Below, one piece after another: positions 10,053 through 62,212 of a stretch of DNA of 64,000 nucleotides. Source of the DNA: Branchiostoma floridae (taxonomy: Eukaryota; Chordata; Leptocardii; Amphioxiformes; Branchiostomatidae); the NCBI RefSeq assembly GCF_000003815.2, contig NC_049982.1, positions 15,938,392-16,002,391 of the forward strand, read 5' to 3'. The stretch's first letter is position 1, and each line of letters starts with the position of its first letter. The notes beneath the pieces are model-generated. The model did no database searches. It was not told where the DNA came from and was given only the letters and a program-made list of their open reading frames with translations. A program made the translations under genes and the position numbers.

Positions 10053-10215
10053 TTCAAGAGAGACAACAAGGGCGACGATTTACGNNNNNNNNNNNNNNNN
10101 NNNNNNNNNNNNNNNNNNNNNNNNNNNNNNNNNNNNNNNNNNNNNNNNNNNNNNNNNNNNNNNNNNNNNNNNNNNNNNNNNNNNTTCAGAGAGACAACAA
10201 GGGCGACGATTTACG
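10053..10215 (+). repeat. Direct repeat flanking an assembly gap
   Basis: The 27-base string starting gagagacaacaagggc and ending gatttacg occurs immediately left of the N run (within 10053-10084) and immediately right of it (10185-10215). Preceding bases also match (ttcaa versus ttca). The two flanks therefore look like the same locus sequenced twice, or a tandem repeat that stopped the assembly. Confidence 0.85.
10085..10184. other. Assembly gap (100 N)
   Basis: Exactly 100 N, the conventional size for a gap of unknown length. See the flanking direct repeat. Confidence 0.99.
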
Positions 10216-14152: not shown

Positions 14153-14258
14153 GTAAGGAGCTAATTATTCTTTGTCACAACGGCCCTCGCACGACTCCTG
14201 ACACGTACATAACGACTACAGGTTGCCAGCCCTGTACAATTTTCCCCGCGGACGGAAA

Positions 14259-14585
14259 ATGAAAAACCCGGATCAAACGCTTCCTTTGTGTGGAGCTTCA
14301 ACCGTTATTAATATTTCAGACGGGACGCCAGGTGATATTAGCGATGGCTTTATCATCGGACGAGAGCTGATGAAATATTCTAGCAACAGCTGTGGCCCGG
14401 TCTTAGAACCAGAACAAAGACATGACGTTAGTGTGACAGGGATATGGATGGAACTCTTCAACATACTGTTCCAAAACGTTCAAAAATGGAAGAAAATCAT
14501 ATATAATTTAGATAGCCGGAATGGGCAAAATTTGAGCACTGATATTTTTACCACTGAAGTTGTTATTGAAGAAGGCGGCCAATAA
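14259..14585 (+). CDS. Hypothetical ORF, 108 codons
   Basis: The first ATG in this frame is at 14259 (MKNPDQTLPL) and the frame ends with TAA at 14583-14585. Just upstream, at 14220-14221, is an acceptor-like 'actacag', so the frame could instead be a terminal exon starting at 14222. The product is mildly acidic with a hydrophobic segment (IWMELFNILF) and looks more protein-like than random frames nearby. I recognise no domain. It could also be a decayed transposon fragment or chance. Confidence 0.2.
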   Translation: MKNPDQTLPLCGASTVINISDGTPGDISDGFIIGRELMKYSSNSCGPVLEPEQRHDVSVTGIWMELFNILFQNVQKWKKIIYNLDSRNGQNLSTDIFTTEVVIEEGGQ

Positions 14586-14589
14586 ATTA

Positions 14590-17500
14590 GTGTTGTTTTT
14601 TTAGTTTATTTGTTGATAAGAATGCATCCTGGTTTTGGCTAACAGACATTGCCCACATGTACTAGTATTAAGCTATGTATTGTCCATTTATCTAATTCAT
14701 CAAATTCATTGATGGGCATGCATAGCACCAAGGGCGACAGCAGATTTTGCGGTTGTACCTTTGCTTATTCTTAACTCACATTCGGGTGCTTTATCTGTAG
14801 GTCAAAGGGCACACACCCTGTATGATACAGTCTTTAATGATATCACATAAAACCTGGATGAAATTCAGGTAGGACTTTCTTATAATCAGGAGTTATCACA
14901 TTGATGAAACATGCGCAGTTTGTATGCCCAGATTCCATCAAGGTTACCAAATTATCCGCTATATCAAGGACGTTTCCCCATCAGGGGGCGCTCTTGTTGC
15001 CGTGGTTACAAATTTATGCTTCACGTACATTTTTTTCGGATCTACTCGCTCGAAAATGTGAATTGAAACTGACAGAAGCTTATAACGTATCCAGATGCCA
15101 TCACAGACAGTAAACTTTATTTTGATTCATCAACATTTTAGTTTCTATGTTCAGTATATACACTTAAAGAACTGACTAGCGAAGAAACAAGTTGATGGTA
15201 AACAATCTAACGTTTTCGTTTCATCTGGTGAAAATAACAAACGTGACAGACGTAACGTTTGTATAATTCATGTCGAAATGGGTCAAACTTATTCCCGTAA
15301 ATTTAATGGAAAATAGGCCAGGTGAACAATAGCAGCCGGCACCCCTATTGTGGTTCCGTGTGAGCTGTCCCAGTGGTAAACCAGCATGACAAGTTTCTCT
15401 GTGCGCAGGATAGACGGCCGGTGAGTCATCACAAGTCGCCGTGGGACATACGAGCTTCCCTCACACACCGGCAACCAAGGCCGACATGCAACAAGGAAGC
15501 TGAGTAGGCACGAGTCGTCTTACACAGTCAGGAAACCTTCTTACAGGACTACCACTTAATACAGGTAAACGGTGTACTTTTTGTAATTTTAACTCTTGTA
15601 ACGTTAACCATATCATTGCTGACAATGCTGTATCTGTATCTATGTGAAGGTGTTCTTTGTTTATGTTAAACACTGACAAGGTCAACGTCAGGTATCGTCT
15701 AGTTCCAGTAATAAGCTGTATAGAAATTGTGCGCTTGGAGAGTGTCATGTATATACAGCGTTAGGTTCATGTAGTAAGCTGCCTGTCGTTACCGGTGACC
15801 AGCAATGAGAAAATTACCAGGCCCCTCTGTCATAAAATGTGGGACACTGTACCTAATCATTTGTGGATTGACAAAAGAGTTTAGTTTTTACATGTTTTTA
15901 TCCAAATTTATGTGCTGTACTTTTGTCTGATGGCTGTGGGCTGCGAAATACAAGCAGTATGAAAACTTAGCATATATTGCGCATCAAAACATTCACGCCT
16001 CGTGTCTACGTTGTATGCCAGGTATAGCTATAGGCACCATATGTTTTATCGTTTGATTAATAATGTAAACTTATCTGGGTGCGGCATGCGAAGACTTATG
16101 GGGATAACGTTTTCACAATGAGTATGAGCCATACTGGCGACGCGGATCAGAGGCAAGCTCTAAGCCATTGTCACGCAATGTGATATAGTGGCCATACGAA
16201 GTCAAGAAATACAAGGTTTACAGTTTATAAATTATGTCGTACGCATCAAAATAAATTGAGGATGTCTTGCCCACATCGTACTCTAATTCTGAAGTCATCT
16301 ATAAAAAATATAGACATATAAGGTACCATATTAGAACGTCTACGAGTATAGCACTTTATAAATGCACTTTGCATTTAGAAAAAAAAACTTTGGGGTGTCC
16401 GCAGATGACTCAACGTTGCAGTATCCACAGATGTTGTCGCACCAACACGAATGATGGAGCGGGATTATTGTAGCTGCTCTAAGCTTCAGACAATGAACCT
16501 TTTATATCCTAATGGCAACTCCATCAATTTGCTGGTACCTTTCTCAGAATCTTGCAAGTCACATTGCACATCATGTTATTACATGGCTCTTTGGATGAGC
16601 ATGATCAAGTCTCCCTTCAATTATATCAAGCCTAGACAGCCCAAAAGGGTGACAATGACAATAGGAGCTGTGCCCAGGTGTCCTTTATTTGGCGCCGTTC
16701 TTACAAGACTAACTTTTAACAGTCTGCAATAATGTGAATGTCTGAGGCTTATGTTACTGTCCATGATATGATTTCAATAAACGATAAGGCGTGTCTTAGG
16801 GCTTTGTGCGTCCCATTTTCTTGCCACATTTCAGGATACAGAGAAAGCAATAATCCGTGCCTGTACTTGTAACTAAATTGGGCAGTCAAAGAGTGTATGT
16901 TTCGTCTATATATAAAACAGCCGGCGTATGTGTAACGCATCCTGTGTGGTAAGTCAAAGCATACATTTATGTACAATCAAGTACAAAATCTAAAATGTGA
17001 GCAAGAATTCAACTCAACTATTCATATGTCTTCATGTGTTGATGAGATCTGTATGCTAGAATGCCATGTAGCTTGTTTGGTAAACCCGCGTTGTTGATGT
17101 AACCTTGAATTAGGACAGGGACCACTGGTGTGGGGGTAAACTCCGGATGTAAGAGCACTTTTTAAGTTAAAACGTATCTTCTTATCGTAGACCAAAGGAG
17201 CGTACAAAATACAATACCCCTTACTATATACTTCTGTTATATCAAAACAAGTTCCATTCCCAGCTGTAGTTGGACTTTCCGCCGACTTTCCTCTCAAAGA
17301 CAAAACAAAAAGCGTTCTTGACAAACATTCCCGTTCTTGGACCAGCTGTCCCTACTCGTAAAATCGTTGTTTTCCCCGTTGTACAGATGTTACCTGTGGC
17401 ATTGTTATAGCGAACATTAAAAACCTGACAGGACGCACAATAGGTATCCTAACCTATAACAAACTCTAACCCTTCAATGTCGCCAATTTTTCATCGTTGA

Positions 17501-19345
17501 CTTTCAGTCATGCCCTATGCGTAACCACGCAATAACATTTCAGAACCAGGGGAGGAGAGGTATGTGTCATCTAACCCTGACTCCCCCAGGACCGGTGTGT
17601 TCGGACTGATTGGCATCAGCAGACAGATGATTCAGTCGAAGTGCCGCCTACAAATATCATTATCGAACCACCTATTAAAGAAGAGGTTCGGAATTTTTAA
17701 CGCCAGTAGCATCATCTATTATCATTGGAATATGAAACCTATGAGTTTTAACTATGAAATATTCTTCTTCCGCGGAAACAAATTTGGTTTGAAACTGTCC
17801 TTGAATGACCTTGGTCACCTATCTATGATCCATGTCGCCTGAAGGTTAAGGTTAGTTATAGATGACAGACCCTATTGTGTTGGGATATCACCGGCCGGTA
17901 CCGAAGAGTTCATCACTACTTCCTCCTAAGATAAACCTGAATCAAAACATTTGCTATCTTCGCTACACCAAACACAAGAATGGTGGTGAAGTAATATCGT
18001 TTGTTGCAACGGTGACTATCCGACAGCAAAATGGCTGCTTTTTTACCTGAGGGGTATCAGGTTACTTCCTGAGATCACTGTAACCTGTATCTCCTTTAGT
18101 AATACAGCCACCTGTCAAGTACGTCTTAAAATGACAATTTCGTAGTTAACGCAGCACGAGTGTATGTCGTGCTTTATTCAACGTCAAAACGACTGATACA
18201 ATTAAACAAACAAGTAAAACGAACGCTACCTGATTATAATAGCTTTTACCACCAGCGCGCAGATCATTGCCATATATAATAAAGACAATTCAATATAAAG
18301 TATTAACCAATGAAATATGTTTAAAAATGCATGGGTGCAAACAGGTGGTGAACGATGCTAGTACTTTGCATTGTTTCCAGAATGTTTCGCAGTGACTCCT
18401 GGGAAAAAACATTAATTTCGAACTTCCCTGGGCGCGCAATGTGGCGGCCACCGGTGCCCGGGGCATGGTTGCCTAATTGACTACAAGTAAAATCTTGCTG
18501 TGAATACTTCACTTATTTTTGTCTCCATGATTAAGGCTTGATTACACATGAACAAAAGACATGTACGCGCATTCTGTGTGAACAGACGTCAGTAACAATT
18601 ACATGACGTGGGTTCCATGGAGCAGAAATCATACTGGGGTCATGATCTGCTGACGTGGGCCAGAGATCAAGAGATATCTGTAACTTTATACTCTTTTAGA
18701 TTTATCAAAAACATGGAACAATGCAAAAACATATACCACACCGACAATGCAGCGAAGCTGGAAAAAAATCTCGTACATGCAAAAATGTGATGATAAATCT
18801 TAAAAAATAGATAATGGATTCAATTGTATGAATGAAGCTTTTTTCTGGTGAAATTCAATCTAGTCACGGTGTATTAACTGACAACTTATGAATAATCAAT
18901 CTAATGTTACGTACTGCAGTCAATGAAAGGCCCAAAGGCATACATTGAACCATGTATTTATGGGGTTTGCCAAGTATACGTAATTATATGAAGCTCGAAC
19001 TTTACTAGCAACGCGTGGCTGGTTGCAAAATGTGTTTTAACCATGCCACACAGTCAACTCTACGTATTTGTCCTCGTGTGGCATGCCAAACAATATAAAT
19101 GATACAAACAAAAAAGCAACAAGAAGTGACAAAAACATTGAATACAAAGGAAATCAAAATGGTAGGTCAGAGACATTTTGCGCTGGTAAAAAGTACTCTG
19201 TAGTGTTGCTGCCTTCCACTATTGAATTTCTACTTGCAAGTTATTTTGATGACATGTAGTCAAATATTTTTCCGTGTATGTTATTATTATAATATCTTTC
19301 TGTATATATGTAGACGCTATTCTAAACCTAGCAGTTTGTCTGTCT
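14590..19345. other. Long spacer or large intron upstream of the PARP exons
   Basis: About 4.7 kb with no convincing exon. The first visible PARP exon starts in mid-codon, so at least one upstream exon exists, and this stretch may be one of its introns. Open frames here (for example 16451-16732, 17564-17842 on plus; 15289-15474, 17022-17324 on minus) show no domain or splice support. Confidence 0.4.
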
Positions 19346-19349
19346 GCAG

Positions 19350-21029
19350 ATTTGGCTGGACTGACAGAGATGGTGCTCCAGAGGACTGGTGACGTCACGT
19401 CGTCGTCCTGCCGCTGTCTGGACTCGTGGCAGTGGTCCCCTGACCTGGTGGTGCCCGGCTCCACCCAGCCGTACGTGCGGGTATCTCTACAGCCCACCGC
19501 CAGCGAGTACATGACGGTAGAGTCCATGTTCATGGCCTCCATGGCCTCGGAGGGCGCCGTGATGCAGAGAATCGACAAAGTGGAGAACCCCAATCTTCTC
19601 GCCAGATATCAAAGGTACAGGTCATCACGTACATCAGCTGTCTACAAAGCCTTTTCCTATTGGTGATGAAAACGCTCGGCTATTCTACATACTATTAGCA
19701 ACCTATGCACTATAGAAGATTGCGTACTTATAATCAGATAGTGAAAAAATCCAGTCGTTCTTTTTCTTTTGCTATATGCCTAATATAGTATTCATTATAC
19801 ATATCGTTGTACACCCACAGTAAGAAAGCCGCCCTGTCAGAACGCTTGTCGCCTGACTGCATCAACGAAGTCCAGGCGTTCCACGGCACGACGCCTGACT
19901 GTGTGGACGGGATCTGTAAGTCCAGTGTCATCCCGTACGGCAAGGGCGCGTACTTCGCCTGGACCGCCATCAGAAGTCACTGTTACACGGAGGAGGACGC
20001 AGATGGGCTCAGGTACGGTATAATGTACACAAAGTTTGTAAAAAGATGTTGGATGTGAAAATCCAAAATTTTGTTCATTGCGTTTCCCAGATTCTGATTT
20101 TGTTTCAGGAAAACTGGGTAGACGGAAGACATTACAATTAGTAACGCGTTCGACGTGATAAAATGTGCTTTCATATTAATTTGCCGTATGCATTCGTATC
20201 ATCAGTGACAGGTATCGACAGATGTTTTGCCACCGTAACACCATTCTGTCTCTGTACCAGGTACATGATCCTGTCCCACGTCATGTTGGGGTACTGGACG
20301 GTGGGCGAGCCCAGGCCGCTCAAACCAGGCCTTCCCGTGATCCTGAGGGGGAACCATCTCACACACGGCGACTCTGCCATAGACCAGGCTCACAACCCGC
20401 ATGTCTTCGTCACGTGGGACCAGTACCAGTCCTATCCTTCATACGTCATCGTCTACAGAGCTCCAGACTGCATACACAGGTAGGAAAAGGAAACACCCCG
20501 CCTCTCTATAGCTATAATCAATAGTCGTGTGAAATGAACCATAGTGGAAACTTAAGGCTCCCTTTCCAATAGACGTGGACAGAATTGGATTAACTATTAG
20601 TAATACAATGATTTTATAATTGGAATATTATGGGCGATGTAAATGTATGGTTTGAAAGACAACAAAAAGTTACGAAAATTTATTCTGACCATCTGACAAA
20701 TCTAAGTCAGGCAGCGGCAGCAGCCTCTATTGAAAAGGGAGTAACTCATTTGTTTCAAAGCGCAATAACTGCAAGATGAAACACCAAGTTGATAGCAGGT
20801 GTTACTGTTGCTGATGACAGTAGTTGTTGCTGATGGATGTAGTTGTTGCTGATGTGTTGCTGGTGAATGTAGTTCTTGCTGACTGTTTCCTAACGTTTGG
20901 TTCCCCTGCAGGCAGTTGTCCGTTCAACAGGAGGTGATGCAGGCCATGAAGAAGTGGGACAAGGAGGCCAAGAAAAGAGCGCGGCACAGTCGGAGGAGAA
21001 AAGACACAGCTTCCTGCGTAGTCATGTAG
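19350..21029 (+). CDS. PARP-family mono-ADP-ribosyltransferase-like protein, C-terminal part, CaaX-tailed
   Basis: Four exons, phases consistent: 19350-19614, 19821-20012, 20261-20479, 20912-21029 (TAG), about 263 residues, 5' end missing. The PARP catalytic fold shows as IDKVENPNLLARYQ, then FHGTT (triad His), YGKGAYFAWTA (triad Tyr), and NPHVFVTWDQYQSYPSYVIVY. The third triad position falls in the last block and is not an obvious Glu, as in mono-ART PARPs of the PARP10-15/TIPARP group. That group normally transfers a single ADP-ribose from NAD+ to protein. The loop between HGTT and YGKG is only 14 residues, shorter than is usual in this group. The last exon is very basic (KKWDKEAKKRARHSRRRKD) and the protein ends CVVM, a CaaX prenylation box. 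Vertebrate ZAP-L (PARP13) also ends in a CaaX box. Zinc-finger or WWE domains, if present, must lie upstream. Confidence 0.85.
20803..20884 (+). repeat. Short degenerate minisatellite in a PARP intron
   Basis: Imperfect repeats of a unit like gtagttgttgctgatg, four or five copies, immediately before the last PARP exon's pyrimidine tract. Confidence 0.7.
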
Positions 21030-22175
21030 TTAGTGTAATCATCTCACTGCCATCACGTGTCTAGACAACATCACACGCCACGTTCATGGGTGTTGACATG
21101 CTGTTTATAATATCATACATGTAGTTCCTGTTCCTATGTTGAAACTTATTGTTATTAGTTCGTTTTCAGTCTTATTGTTCAGGATATAGTTTAGTAACTT
21201 GTCGTATACTTTAGTACATTGTACCCATCACAATTGCGTAGAGGTACAGGTAACCTTTCATTGACTCGTTGTGTAACTAAAAAGAAACGATTGTTCTGTA
21301 ACTGAGAATCATTTTAATATGAGTATAAAAATGTAAAGTATATCAGCATTAACAGCTTCTCTACATGTGTTGTCAGAAGAATATCATGGTGATCTGATTC
21401 ATGCACAGGTTTCTCTAAACACGCAGATTTTTGCTAAAACGTTTCTGATCTGGAGTAATCCAAATAGATCCTGGATAGTTTGCCCGTGATTGTGAAGCAC
21501 TGCGTTGTGTAGACACTGTTGTTCATCAAGCACACCAGAAATACGTATCACTTAGAATTATTAGTATCTAGTTGTTACCTGGAATTCCGTGAATGCCTTC
21601 AATAGGTTAGGATGCATCATATTGGCAGGGATTAGTACATAGCCATGTTAGGAAGGAAGGGCTGTAGTAGGGTATGTTTGCTATTAACAAAAGCACTACA
21701 TGTATGAATCTCATTTATAATGACAATGCCATTATCTTCTACAATGTGTACTTTTGCCAAATTGATGTATCAGTGTCACTACCATTCCTGCTGTAAGTGG
21801 AAGACAGCACATTATTCTTCCATATCAAGCTAGCTTTCTTGCATGTCTTGTTGCCAACGTCTGCATCAGCCTGTTGTATTTCAAGTCTTATGTTATGTGT
21901 GAGCAATGACAACGATGTTACATGCATGCAATGTTTCTATTTGATATAATGTGTTTATGGAAAAAGACAATGGAAGTCTCTATATCCCTGTCAGAGGTAG
22001 TAATACATTGCCCATTGTGGTATTTCTATTAGCGAGTGAGTAGTAAAGTTCATGTCATCTTTATAGATATGATATTTTGGACAAGCCCTTTTCATTGTGC
22101 AGTGACAATAGTCATGTGTATGTATGTGTGTGTACATGTAATGTGTTGTTCTTTACAATAAAGCAATCAAAAATG
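21030..22175 (+). other. Probable 3' UTR of the PARP-like gene
   Basis: No coding signal after the stop. A polyadenylation signal AATAAA is at 22157-22162 (context ttacaataaagc), about 1.1 kb downstream, and would give a plausible mRNA end near 22180. Confidence 0.5.
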
Positions 22176-22179
22176 AATC

Positions 22180-23071
22180 TACAGCTTTTGACGGTCTAGT
22201 GCTTTGTGTAACCTGTCTGGACTGCCAACATACCAGCATAACCAGTAAATATCACTGCCATTGCATAGTGTATATTTGGTAGTATTCTTTGTTTGTTAGT
22301 CATTCAAAGTGCATAATAAGTTTTGTCTGATGTACATACATGTTCAGAAGAACAAATTTTCTTCCATACATGAATAAGTTATGTTGGTAAGCATGTAAAT
22401 CTAACCCAACATACAATAGCTTATTTAAGATTACAGAGTTTCAGTTCTCAACCATGGAGTTCGAATTTCTGCCATGCCCCACCATTGATAGATGGATTTT
22501 AGCTGTTGACATGATCTTTACAACCATCTGTCTCCAAAGACAAGGCATTTTTAGTGCTTTATTGGGTTATGGTTTTATTTGGAGAATTCCCATGCACATT
22601 GGGATTTGACCCTATAATGAATGATATTTCAATGCCAATGATGGAAACCCATCCTTCCATACAAATTGACAGCAGCACATATCCTTAAAATTCATTGTCT
22701 GCACAATAAATTTTCTCTATAGCCACACCATCTTGCTTTTATCCAGCTACTGCAGGCCCATTGACAATGCCAGATCTGACGTTACATGCCAGTGGGAAAT
22801 AGTTAAACCTCATTTTTCACTATCAATATGCTTCACCATATACAAAAAATATTCCTTCAATTTTACACAATGACAATATCACAATAATGCTATCATATTC
22901 ACCTGTTAGGTAAATACATACAGTAAGTGAGTTTTGAACCTAGTACATGTCCAAATCTATTTTAATGGCCCTATATTTGTCACTGACCATTGATAGGGGT
23001 CATCTTTATAAAGAACCAATTAAAAATTATAGTGTATTTAGGCATCCCTCATAAAAGCACATAAGTGAGGC
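22180..23071. other. Convergent intergenic region between PARP and VPS36
   Basis: AT-rich, with no exon or repeat boundaries recognised. It should contain the VPS36 3' UTR and polyadenylation site on the minus strand, which I could not place with confidence. Confidence 0.4.
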
Positions 23072-58850: not shown

Positions 58851-60889
58851 TTAATCGTCCAGCTCATCAGGTGACATGATCTCCCGCTCCCTACTCAAGG
58901 TTTCCACCGCGCTGGCCTCCGACGCCAGCTTCCTGCTCAGCTCATGCAGACTGCTCTCCAAGTCCTCCTTCTTCCTCTGAAGACCCTGCAGCTCCTTCAG
59001 TAGCTTTTTGTAACCCTCCTGCTCGGCACTTGCCAGACCCATCATGAGACAACCAACAAGGGCGACACTGAATAGTGCAGAAGACCGCCCTTGTGTCAGT
59101 GCCTTGTACCAATAGAGCAATCCCGTGCCACCTGCAGACAACAGTACCGCCCCACCTCCAATCCACGCCATTCCTGCAAAACGGTGTTTCAACCATCTGT
59201 TTATACAAATATACATCATGTTTATGGAACAGATAGTTTGAGACTTTGCTACTTGATTGAAAATCCATTACAAATTGATTCAGGTCGTCCGTGGTAACCA
59301 CGGCACACAGTCACAAGATTATACAAACATAAAACTCGCCTGCGCCTTCGTTCCTCTTCTTGACCTTGACCCTCGTTACCAGGTTGTTGATTTCTTTCTC
59401 AGCCTTCTTCAGACGCTCCTGGCAACTTGTCATCTCCAGCTCCGCACGCCGTGTGGCCGTGTCGAACTCCCGCTGGAGAGCGTCATCCTGGCCGTTACAC
59501 TCCAGAATGCGGTCACACAGAGCTGTAACCTGTGTGATAAATTTTGATAACGTTACAGTTCACGCCAAGAAAGCTCAAGAACCCCGCACAAGAGAACATG
59601 CTGTACGCGTGGAAGAGATGAAAACCTGTGCTGCATAGTCCCATGTATTAACAACTGCATGCGGTCACACTCTCTATGGCAAGTGTCGACAGAGAATACT
59701 GAGAATGTGAAATAAAGACGTAAACAAACGGGAAACAAAGCAAAGGAACCTATATTTCTAGATAGTGACACGCTTTGTGAGCTCTTTCCTCTAATGCCTG
59801 GATCTTGTTATACCTGACGTCGATGTTGAATATTCAAAGGCAGTGCTTACATGCCTGTGACACTTTCAGCAATAGAAATGTGGAATGGAGCTTTGATTAT
59901 TTACTAGACTATTAACGGATAGTGTACAAAAGTAGCACATGGGGGCACGGCAGTGACTCACCTGAGAGACGTACACCTCTATCTGGGACATCTTCTCCTC
60001 ACACAGCTTCAGACAGTCTGTGATGGACTTCAGCTCTTCTTCATAATCCTTCTTCATCGGGATCATCTTCGCGATTTCTCCCATGAAGAGGCGCACGATC
60101 TGGACGTCCATGTACCGCCCCGCCTCTTCCAGCAACTTCACAATAGCTTTGATAGCCCCTTGAAAAACAACATATTGCACATCCTTAATAATCTTTATAG
60201 ATGGATCTTTGAGAGGGATCGAACAAGAATATGGAGAGAAGGACAAACACTGGATTATGAGAGATCTTATTATTTTTCTGCACTAGTATTGACTCTAAAG
60301 AAGGGTGAGGGATGACACTCGAAACGTCCTTTAGAAATCTCCGAATCTTATCCAGTTGTAGTGGTACTAAATTCTTTAAGTAAATAGAAATACGAGAACT
60401 TATAGAAAAGAAAACACTGATAGGTAAAAATGATCCATACTATGTAGTTGTTCTTAGCTGAAAGAAAATTTGAACTGTAATATTGGAAAGGATTTGACTA
60501 CCTGTCCTTTTTGCCTTTTTGCATGACAGGTCTGTTTCAAAGCAAAAATTTAGGCCCAATAATAATACAAGNNNNNNNNNNNNNNNNNNNNNNNNNNNNN
60601 NNNNNNNNNNNNNNNNNNNNNNNNNNNNNNNNNNNNNNNNNNNNNNNNNNNNNNNNNNNNNNNNNNNNNNNTGGTCCCAAACACTGCCAGGCGGGAGATG
60701 AGCCTGTGGGCTTTCTGCGCATGCCTGGCCCGCTTCCCTGCCTTGCTCCAAGTAGAAGTCGTCTGCGATTTTTTTGTACCGTTCCACCATCTGACGGCAT
60801 TCGTTCAGCGTTCCCATCAGCCGTTCTCCGATTTCATGGTTCCGTCCCTCATCTAGCGAAACCGTGGTCTGGGTAGATGCCTCTGCCAT
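58851..60889 (-). CDS. Unrecognised coiled-coil protein with two membrane segments, incomplete
   Basis: Minus strand. The first exon starts at ATG 60889 (MAEASTQTTVSLDEGRNHEI) and runs into an N gap (about 60672-60889). Firm downstream exons: 59962-60158, 59340-59529, 58851-59173 (TAA). The first of these starts in mid-codon, so the joint to exon 1 is unresolved. Exon 59962-60158 is helical (MKKDYEEELKSITDCLKLCE) and the next has KKAEKEINNLVTRVKVKKR. The last holds two hydrophobic spans (WIGGGAVLLSAGGTGLLYWY and SSALFSVALVGCLMMGLASA), then a coiled coil (LLKELQGLQRKKEDLESSL) and the acidic end SPDELDD. The hairpin of two membrane helices flanked by coiled coils suggests an organelle-membrane protein; that is inference. 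The intron after 59340 appears to use a GC donor. Exon 1 changes its best-looking frame near 60755, possibly a sequence error. Family not recognised. Confidence 0.7.
60572..60671. other. Assembly gap (100 N) inside the minus-strand gene
   Basis: 100 N between the first and second visible exons of the membrane coiled-coil gene. At least the end of exon 1 is probably lost here. Confidence 0.99.
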
Positions 60890-62093: not shown

Positions 62094-62212
62094 NNNNNNN
62101 NNNNNNNNNNNNNNNNNNNNNNNNNNNNNNNNNNNNNNNNNNNNNNNNNNNNNNNNNNNNNNNNNNNNNNNNNNNNNNNNNNNNNNNNNNNNNNNNNNNN
62201 NNNNNNNNNNNN
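62094..62212. other. Assembly gap (119 N)
   Basis: 119 consecutive N, a length that suggests an estimated gap rather than a fixed-size placeholder. Confidence 0.99.

Follow-up and report, generated by a model that had tools for sequence, protein, structure and literature searches.

The window, by which we mean the whole analysed stretch of 64,000 nucleotides of Branchiostoma floridae DNA, has a GC content of 42% and a CpG observed/expected ratio of 0.75, and its genes are intron-rich. Three runs of N, presumably assembly gaps, lie at 10085-10184, 60572-60671 and 62094-62212. The gene studied here occupies positions 19350-21029 of the plus strand and comprises four exons, which encode 257 amino acids counted from the ATG at 19370. 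A second PARP was sought in the window by tblastn, and none was found save weak matches at E of 0.2 or more. Moreover, tRNA and Rfam scans of the window returned none, and a viral contig search with the window gave no match. The features of the gene and its neighbours are as follows.

19350..19614, plus strand: exon A, the first recognised coding exon, with the ATG at 19370 (CAGAGATGG); it encodes the N-terminal PARP domain up to RYQ, as judged from splice sites and phase, a third-position GC of 0.79 and alignment with PARP14 and PARP12
19821..20012, plus strand: exon B, encoding HGT (triad His), the shortened loop, YGKGAYFA (triad Tyr) and the nicotinamide-site Ser
20261..20479, plus strand: exon C, encoding the end of the PARP domain, the third triad residue Val in PHVFVTW (placed via the PARP14 numbering of PMC9189837) and the terminus YPSYVIVYRAPDCIHR
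20480..20911, plus strand: intron C, 432 bases, GT-AG, phase 2
20912..21029, plus strand: exon D, encoding a predicted amphipathic basic helix, a polybasic run and a CVVM CaaX box, then the stop
22157..22162, plus strand: AATAAA, candidate poly(A) signal; a second AATAAA lies at 22705
5.6-6.7 kb: rhodopsin-type receptor, neighbour gene
23-27 kb, minus strand: VPS36, neighbour gene
39.7-44 kb: stretches encoding IGFBP and Ig domains, neighbours

Gene structure and coding signal

Inspection of the splice sites on the DNA showed that all three introns are GT-AG and in phase 2. The acceptor of exon D reads cccctgcag directly before GC and is in phase 2, matching the other two junctions, and positions 20912-21029 correspond exactly to the last coding exon, stop included, as the original prediction had it. 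In-frame third-position GC was 0.79, 0.78, 0.78 and 0.74 in exons A, B, C and D, respectively, compared with 0.38 to 0.57 in the alternative frames of the four exons. As one alternative frame of exon D is likewise free of stops, an open frame alone is no proof of its reading; however, the frame leading to CVVM has the character of coding sequence in exon D, because third-position GC is 0.74 there versus 0.47 and 0.38 in the other two. The possibility that exon D is an artefact was rejected: of the 26 AG acceptors from 20781 on, five preserve the CVVM frame, namely the one at 20912, which gives the full exon, and the internal ones at 20978, 20990, 20996 and 20999. We infer that the four-exon gene is spliced as modelled. 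The ATG at 19370 stands in a good context (GAGATGG), and the AATAAA at 22157, together with the convergent VPS36 gene that begins at 23 kb on the minus strand, is consistent with an end of the gene here.

Translation through a retained intron C reaches a stop one codon past exon C and yields a 219-amino-acid protein without the tail. Retention of this intron, in which AATAAA and ATTAAA were looked for and neither was present, could give rise to a soluble form, and the tail-less and tailed forms would then be comparable to ZAP-S and ZAP-L. Within intron C, at 20806-20873, a 19-base repeat (TGTTGCTGATG...) is present in three copies. In addition, exon B contains a perfect donor-like GTAAGT at 19916-19921, at the place expected to encode the shortened PARP donor loop; an intron may have been lost imprecisely here and left it behind, or it may be a donor that is not used.

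The PARP domain and its active site

The translated protein matched the Pfam PARP model (PF00644) with an E value of 6.1e-12 and 45.9 bits against a cut-off of 26.7, the alignment being confined to residues 51-163 of the 263-residue query. A PDB search with E up to 0.1 retrieved 20 distinct sequences, all of them PARP or ZAP: PARP14 (6.3e-20, 74.4 bits), PARP12 (4.7e-19), PARP15 (6.1e-16), ZAP (7.9e-12) and PARP10 (1e-10). By these matches the protein is a member of the PARP/ARTD superfamily, which bears out the family originally named, and the presence of ZAP among the PDB matches agrees with the kinship proposed to the group that contains it.

Over the whole domain, identity was 33.7% to PARP14 (175 residues), 31.8% to PARP15 and 31.4% to PARP12, in a comparison that took in these three and left out PARP10 and PARP13. 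Over the C-terminal half, identity was 37.6% to PARP13 (38/101), 37.4% to PARP12 (40/107), 34.9% to PARP14, 33.6% to PARP10 and 33.0% to PARP15. The site Ser has no two-residue insertion behind it, as in PARP12 and PARP13 and unlike PARP10, PARP14 and PARP15. In clade 3 (the group of PARP7 and PARP9-15), most members have an aliphatic residue where the H-Y-E triad has Glu, and most of the animal ones also have a Pro at a distance of one residue (PMC2964712). The window protein reads P-H-V-F-V, with an aliphatic residue for Glu and the Pro one residue off. It is therefore likely to be a clade-3 PARP. A tree of six rows was built from the C-terminal half; like the identities, it covered PARP10, PARP12, PARP13, PARP14 and PARP15 and left out PARP7 and PARP11. 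The window protein sat on a long branch in it, and none of the three inner branches was starred, so that the tree, of the kind that the original prediction had suggested, gave no well-supported place. The PARP12/13 side (clade 3E, with PARP7 and PARP11) and the PARP14 side are both plausible, PARP14 having the highest identity over the whole domain among the three compared there, and PARP13 and PARP12 over the C-terminal half.

Active-site residues were assigned by counting from PARP14 His1601, which reproduced G1602, N1624, V1626, Y1633, Y1640, S1641, Y1646 and L1701 (PMC9189837). Matched to this numbering, the triad of the window protein is H-Y-V, formed by the His of HGT, the Tyr of YGKGAYFA and the Val in PHVFV. 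The nicotinamide-site Gly (of HGT) and Ser are also retained, and a Tyr is present three residues past the Ser, so that the triad His and Tyr and the site Gly and Ser of active mono-ADP-ribosyltransferases are all found. As had been predicted, the triad His and Tyr are kept, whereas in both ZAP chains seen YAT replaces HGT, with loss of the His and Gly, and the third residue is Val. Val at the third position is not unique, because it is given for PARP13 and for one Nematostella clade 3E protein (PMC2964712). Poly-ADP-ribosylation is not expected from a triad that lacks Glu.

The stretch from HGT to YGKG, in which the donor loop lies, spans 15 residues, compared with 24 in each of human PARP10, PARP12, PARP13, PARP14 and PARP15, and with nine residues fewer the NAD+ donor site may be incomplete. 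Loop length alone cannot separate active from inactive proteins, because the inactive PARP13 also has 24 residues. The protein was nevertheless not classed as an active enzyme, since the full-length donor loop of active mono-ADP-ribosyltransferases is lacking. An Arg at the position of PARP14 Tyr1640 was considered as a sign of inactivity and rejected, PARP1 having a Lys there (PMC9189837). The catalytic competence originally put forward as a possibility is not established: the His, Tyr, Gly and Ser speak for it, but Val stands third in the triad, as it does in inactive ZAP, and the loop is shorter. That the domain acts as a mono-ADP-ribosyltransferase we regard as about an even call.

The reading that we consider probable, from the features of the sequence, is that of a clade-3 PARP-domain protein of about 257 amino acids held on the cytosolic face of a membrane by its CVVM tail, either as an enzyme or as a binder of NAD+ or partners. 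Falling just short of an even prospect is the alternative that the same anchor carries a pseudoenzyme, whose PARP fold would serve as a scaffold or binding module like the PARP domain of ZAP-L. The shortened loop and the Val shared with ZAP point in this direction, as does the example of ZAP-L itself, the full antiviral action of which requires the farnesyl tail: the C899S mutation in its CaaX box abolished activity on CpG-enriched provirus, and its inactive PARP domain also contributes (PMC8568172). However, a pseudoenzyme fits less well with an HGT that keeps the His and Gly replaced in ZAP, with the retained Tyr and Ser and with the Tyr three residues past the Ser; moreover, the donor loop (D-loop) is described as differing among PARP subfamilies and as affecting activity (PMC9189837).

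The upstream region and related proteins

An acceptor-like sequence precedes the ATG of exon A by 20 bases, which suggests that one or more exons, whether coding or non-coding, lie upstream. No CCCH, WWE or macro domain scored above the Pfam cut-off in 38 of the 39 plus-strand ORFs of at least 48 amino acids at 9.4-19.35 kb (all except ORF 17460-17606), a scan that also took in two further ORFs and left out the minus strand, shorter ORFs or exons, and the gap at 10085-10184. Members of clade 3E carry a WWE domain ahead of the catalytic domain, with or without CCCH zinc fingers, and ZAP has the NZAP CCCH RNA-binding domain and WWE domains. A ZAP-like whole protein is unsupported here, since CCCH and WWE domains were not found in the scanned upstream ORFs. 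Farther upstream of the PARP gene, at 14202-14582 on the plus strand, a 127-amino-acid open stretch matched a Brinker-type DNA-binding domain, though below the threshold (E 0.1); our guess is that it may be what is left of a transposase-like gene.

It is unlikely, in our judgement, that the gene encodes a larger PARP12- or PARP14-like protein of which the 257-amino-acid model covers just the C terminus, with exons for zinc fingers, WWE or macro domains farther upstream, either short and unrecognised or hidden in the gap. The acceptor-like sequence would fit such a protein, and the run of N at 10085-10184, upstream of the PARP gene, might conceal 5' exons. Several PARP12-like and PARP14-like proteins are described in the lancelet, one of the PARP12-like ones having zinc fingers and the same set of domains as in vertebrates (PMC4245714). 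Against this stand the lack of a Pfam match above cut-off in the 38 scanned ORFs, the good context of the ATG and the make-up of the cnidarian and insect members of the group, which have the PARP domain only, with WWE sporadic (PMC4245714). A sponge member is given a transmembrane domain in the same source, so that membrane attachment is not new to the group.

Among known proteins, ZAP-L (PARP13, ZC3HAV1) resembles the window protein in combining a clade-3 PARP domain, a Val in the triad and a farnesyl-type CaaX box, which is CVIS in ZAP-L (PMC8568172). It differs in having YAT for HGT, a loop nine residues longer, and CCCH and WWE domains, for which the scan of the upstream ORFs here was negative. 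Furthermore, the solved ZAP chains end in EYTED, and only a few residues separate EYTED from CVIS, whereas the window protein has a polybasic helix ahead of its CaaX box. An orthologue of ZAP was rejected as an identification, since zinc fingers and WWE were not found in the scanned ORFs, HGT is kept and the loop is shorter.

PARP14, which gave the best PDB score, and PARP15 differ from the window protein in the two-residue insertion after the site Ser, the Leu in the triad and their macrodomains (PMC9189837). PARP12 shares with it the VDGIC motif, the absence of an insertion after the site Ser and a triad of H-Y plus an aliphatic residue; it differs in its full-length donor loop, its CCCH and WWE domains (PMC10450202) and the lack of a CaaX motif, and addition of such a motif to PARP12 is reported to confer no antiviral activity (PMC8568172). 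The titles and abstract openings listed by searches of the open-licence literature on CaaX and PARPs contained no CaaX-bearing animal PARP besides ZAP. PARP14 and PARP15 are likewise not known to carry a CaaX box.

The C-terminal tail and the proposed anchor

The spliced reading of exons C and D is QLSVQQEVMQAMKKWDKEAKKRARHSRRRKDTASCVVM followed by the stop, and the protein ends in KKWDKEAKKRARHSRRRKD-TAS-CVVM-stop. This is the basic run and terminal CVVM of the original prediction, with the addition that TAS stands between the run quoted there and CVVM. The 22 residues preceding CVVM include 11 Lys/Arg and 3 Asp/Glu. The helix VQQEVMQAMKKWDKEAKK, which lies before the basic run, has a hydrophobic moment of 0.51; it is likely to be amphipathic, because shuffling the exon D stretch 10000 times reached this value in only 145 cases. 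When the exon D tail was compared with Pfam, the C-terminal region of Mlo was matched weakly (E 0.038, below the cut-off); we speculate that a basic, amphipathic helix like those that bind calmodulin may lie behind this.

CVVM at the stop is, by its sequence, a CaaX box acceptable to FTase. Human NRas, a substrate of FTase, has the same CaaX box, and a yeast reporter with CVVM showed a shift with human FTase and none without FTase, unlike CVIM and CIIM (PMC11152559). Moreover, the structure of a CVVM peptide in complex with CnFTase has been solved (PMC11121372). As a sequence prediction, the farnesyl-type box behind a polybasic run is thus upheld. The window protein shares its CaaX box with N-Ras (PMC11152559); it differs from N-Ras and K-Ras4B, in which a GTPase is anchored, in carrying a PARP domain and an Arg-rich basic run after the predicted amphipathic helix.

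Among the 2206 six-frame ORF ends of the window (at least 20 amino acids), the strict pattern C-[VILA]-[VIL]-[MSQA] occurred twice, CVVM included, and a looser pattern 14 times; from composition alone, the strict pattern is expected at 1 in 1917. With these counts, a CaaX end somewhere in the window is unsurprising. Chance is nevertheless an unlikely explanation for a CVVM that follows a basic run and closes a gene recognised by homology. We take the run KKRARHSRRRK, from its general pattern, to be compatible with a nuclear-localisation signal. That the basic run serves nuclear localisation or RNA binding, with CVVM a product of chance or exon D a minor alternative end, is quite improbable even so: the signal-like pattern, the two strict CaaX ends and the weak Mlo match would allow it, but CVVM is the proven FTase substrate described above, it closes a gene supported by homology and has the basic run before it, and exon D has a coding-type third-position GC.

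A membrane anchor formed by the farnesyl-type tail is well predicted, and we infer farnesylation of the CVVM Cys and membrane binding from it. In the anchored PARP-domain protein that we favour, cytosolic FTase would farnesylate the Cys of CVVM. In the general CaaX pathway, farnesylation is followed by removal of the last three residues, here VVM, and then by methylation, and the same steps would be expected of this protein. Together with the Arg/Lys run and the amphipathic helix, the farnesyl group would hold the PARP domain on a negatively charged membrane as in K-Ras4B, whose polybasic run resembles the one preceding CVVM. The domain would then, at roughly even probability, mono-ADP-ribosylate targets close to the membrane, or else bind NAD+ or partners without turnover, and retention of the last intron could supply a soluble form.

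A CaaX-anchored PARP is a kind of protein already known from ZAP-L, of which the window protein would be a variant with a Ras-type tail and a retained His and Gly. An antiviral role could be suggested only by analogy. That a non-vertebrate has a farnesylated PARP with enzymatic activity, a mono-ADP-ribosyltransferase placed on membranes by a Ras-type tail, we rate as somewhat less likely than not. Because the anchored domain keeps the His and Tyr, it would offer a natural case for asking whether membrane-placed ADP-ribosylations are useful apart from RNA binding. The CAAX of ZAP has been placed as a gain in (early) tetrapods (PMC12204182). If the present reading is true, a non-vertebrate would possess its own PARP of this group with a Ras-type tail, and anchoring to membranes by CaaX would either have arisen repeatedly in the group or be older than ZAP, which conflicts with an origin in tetrapods alone.
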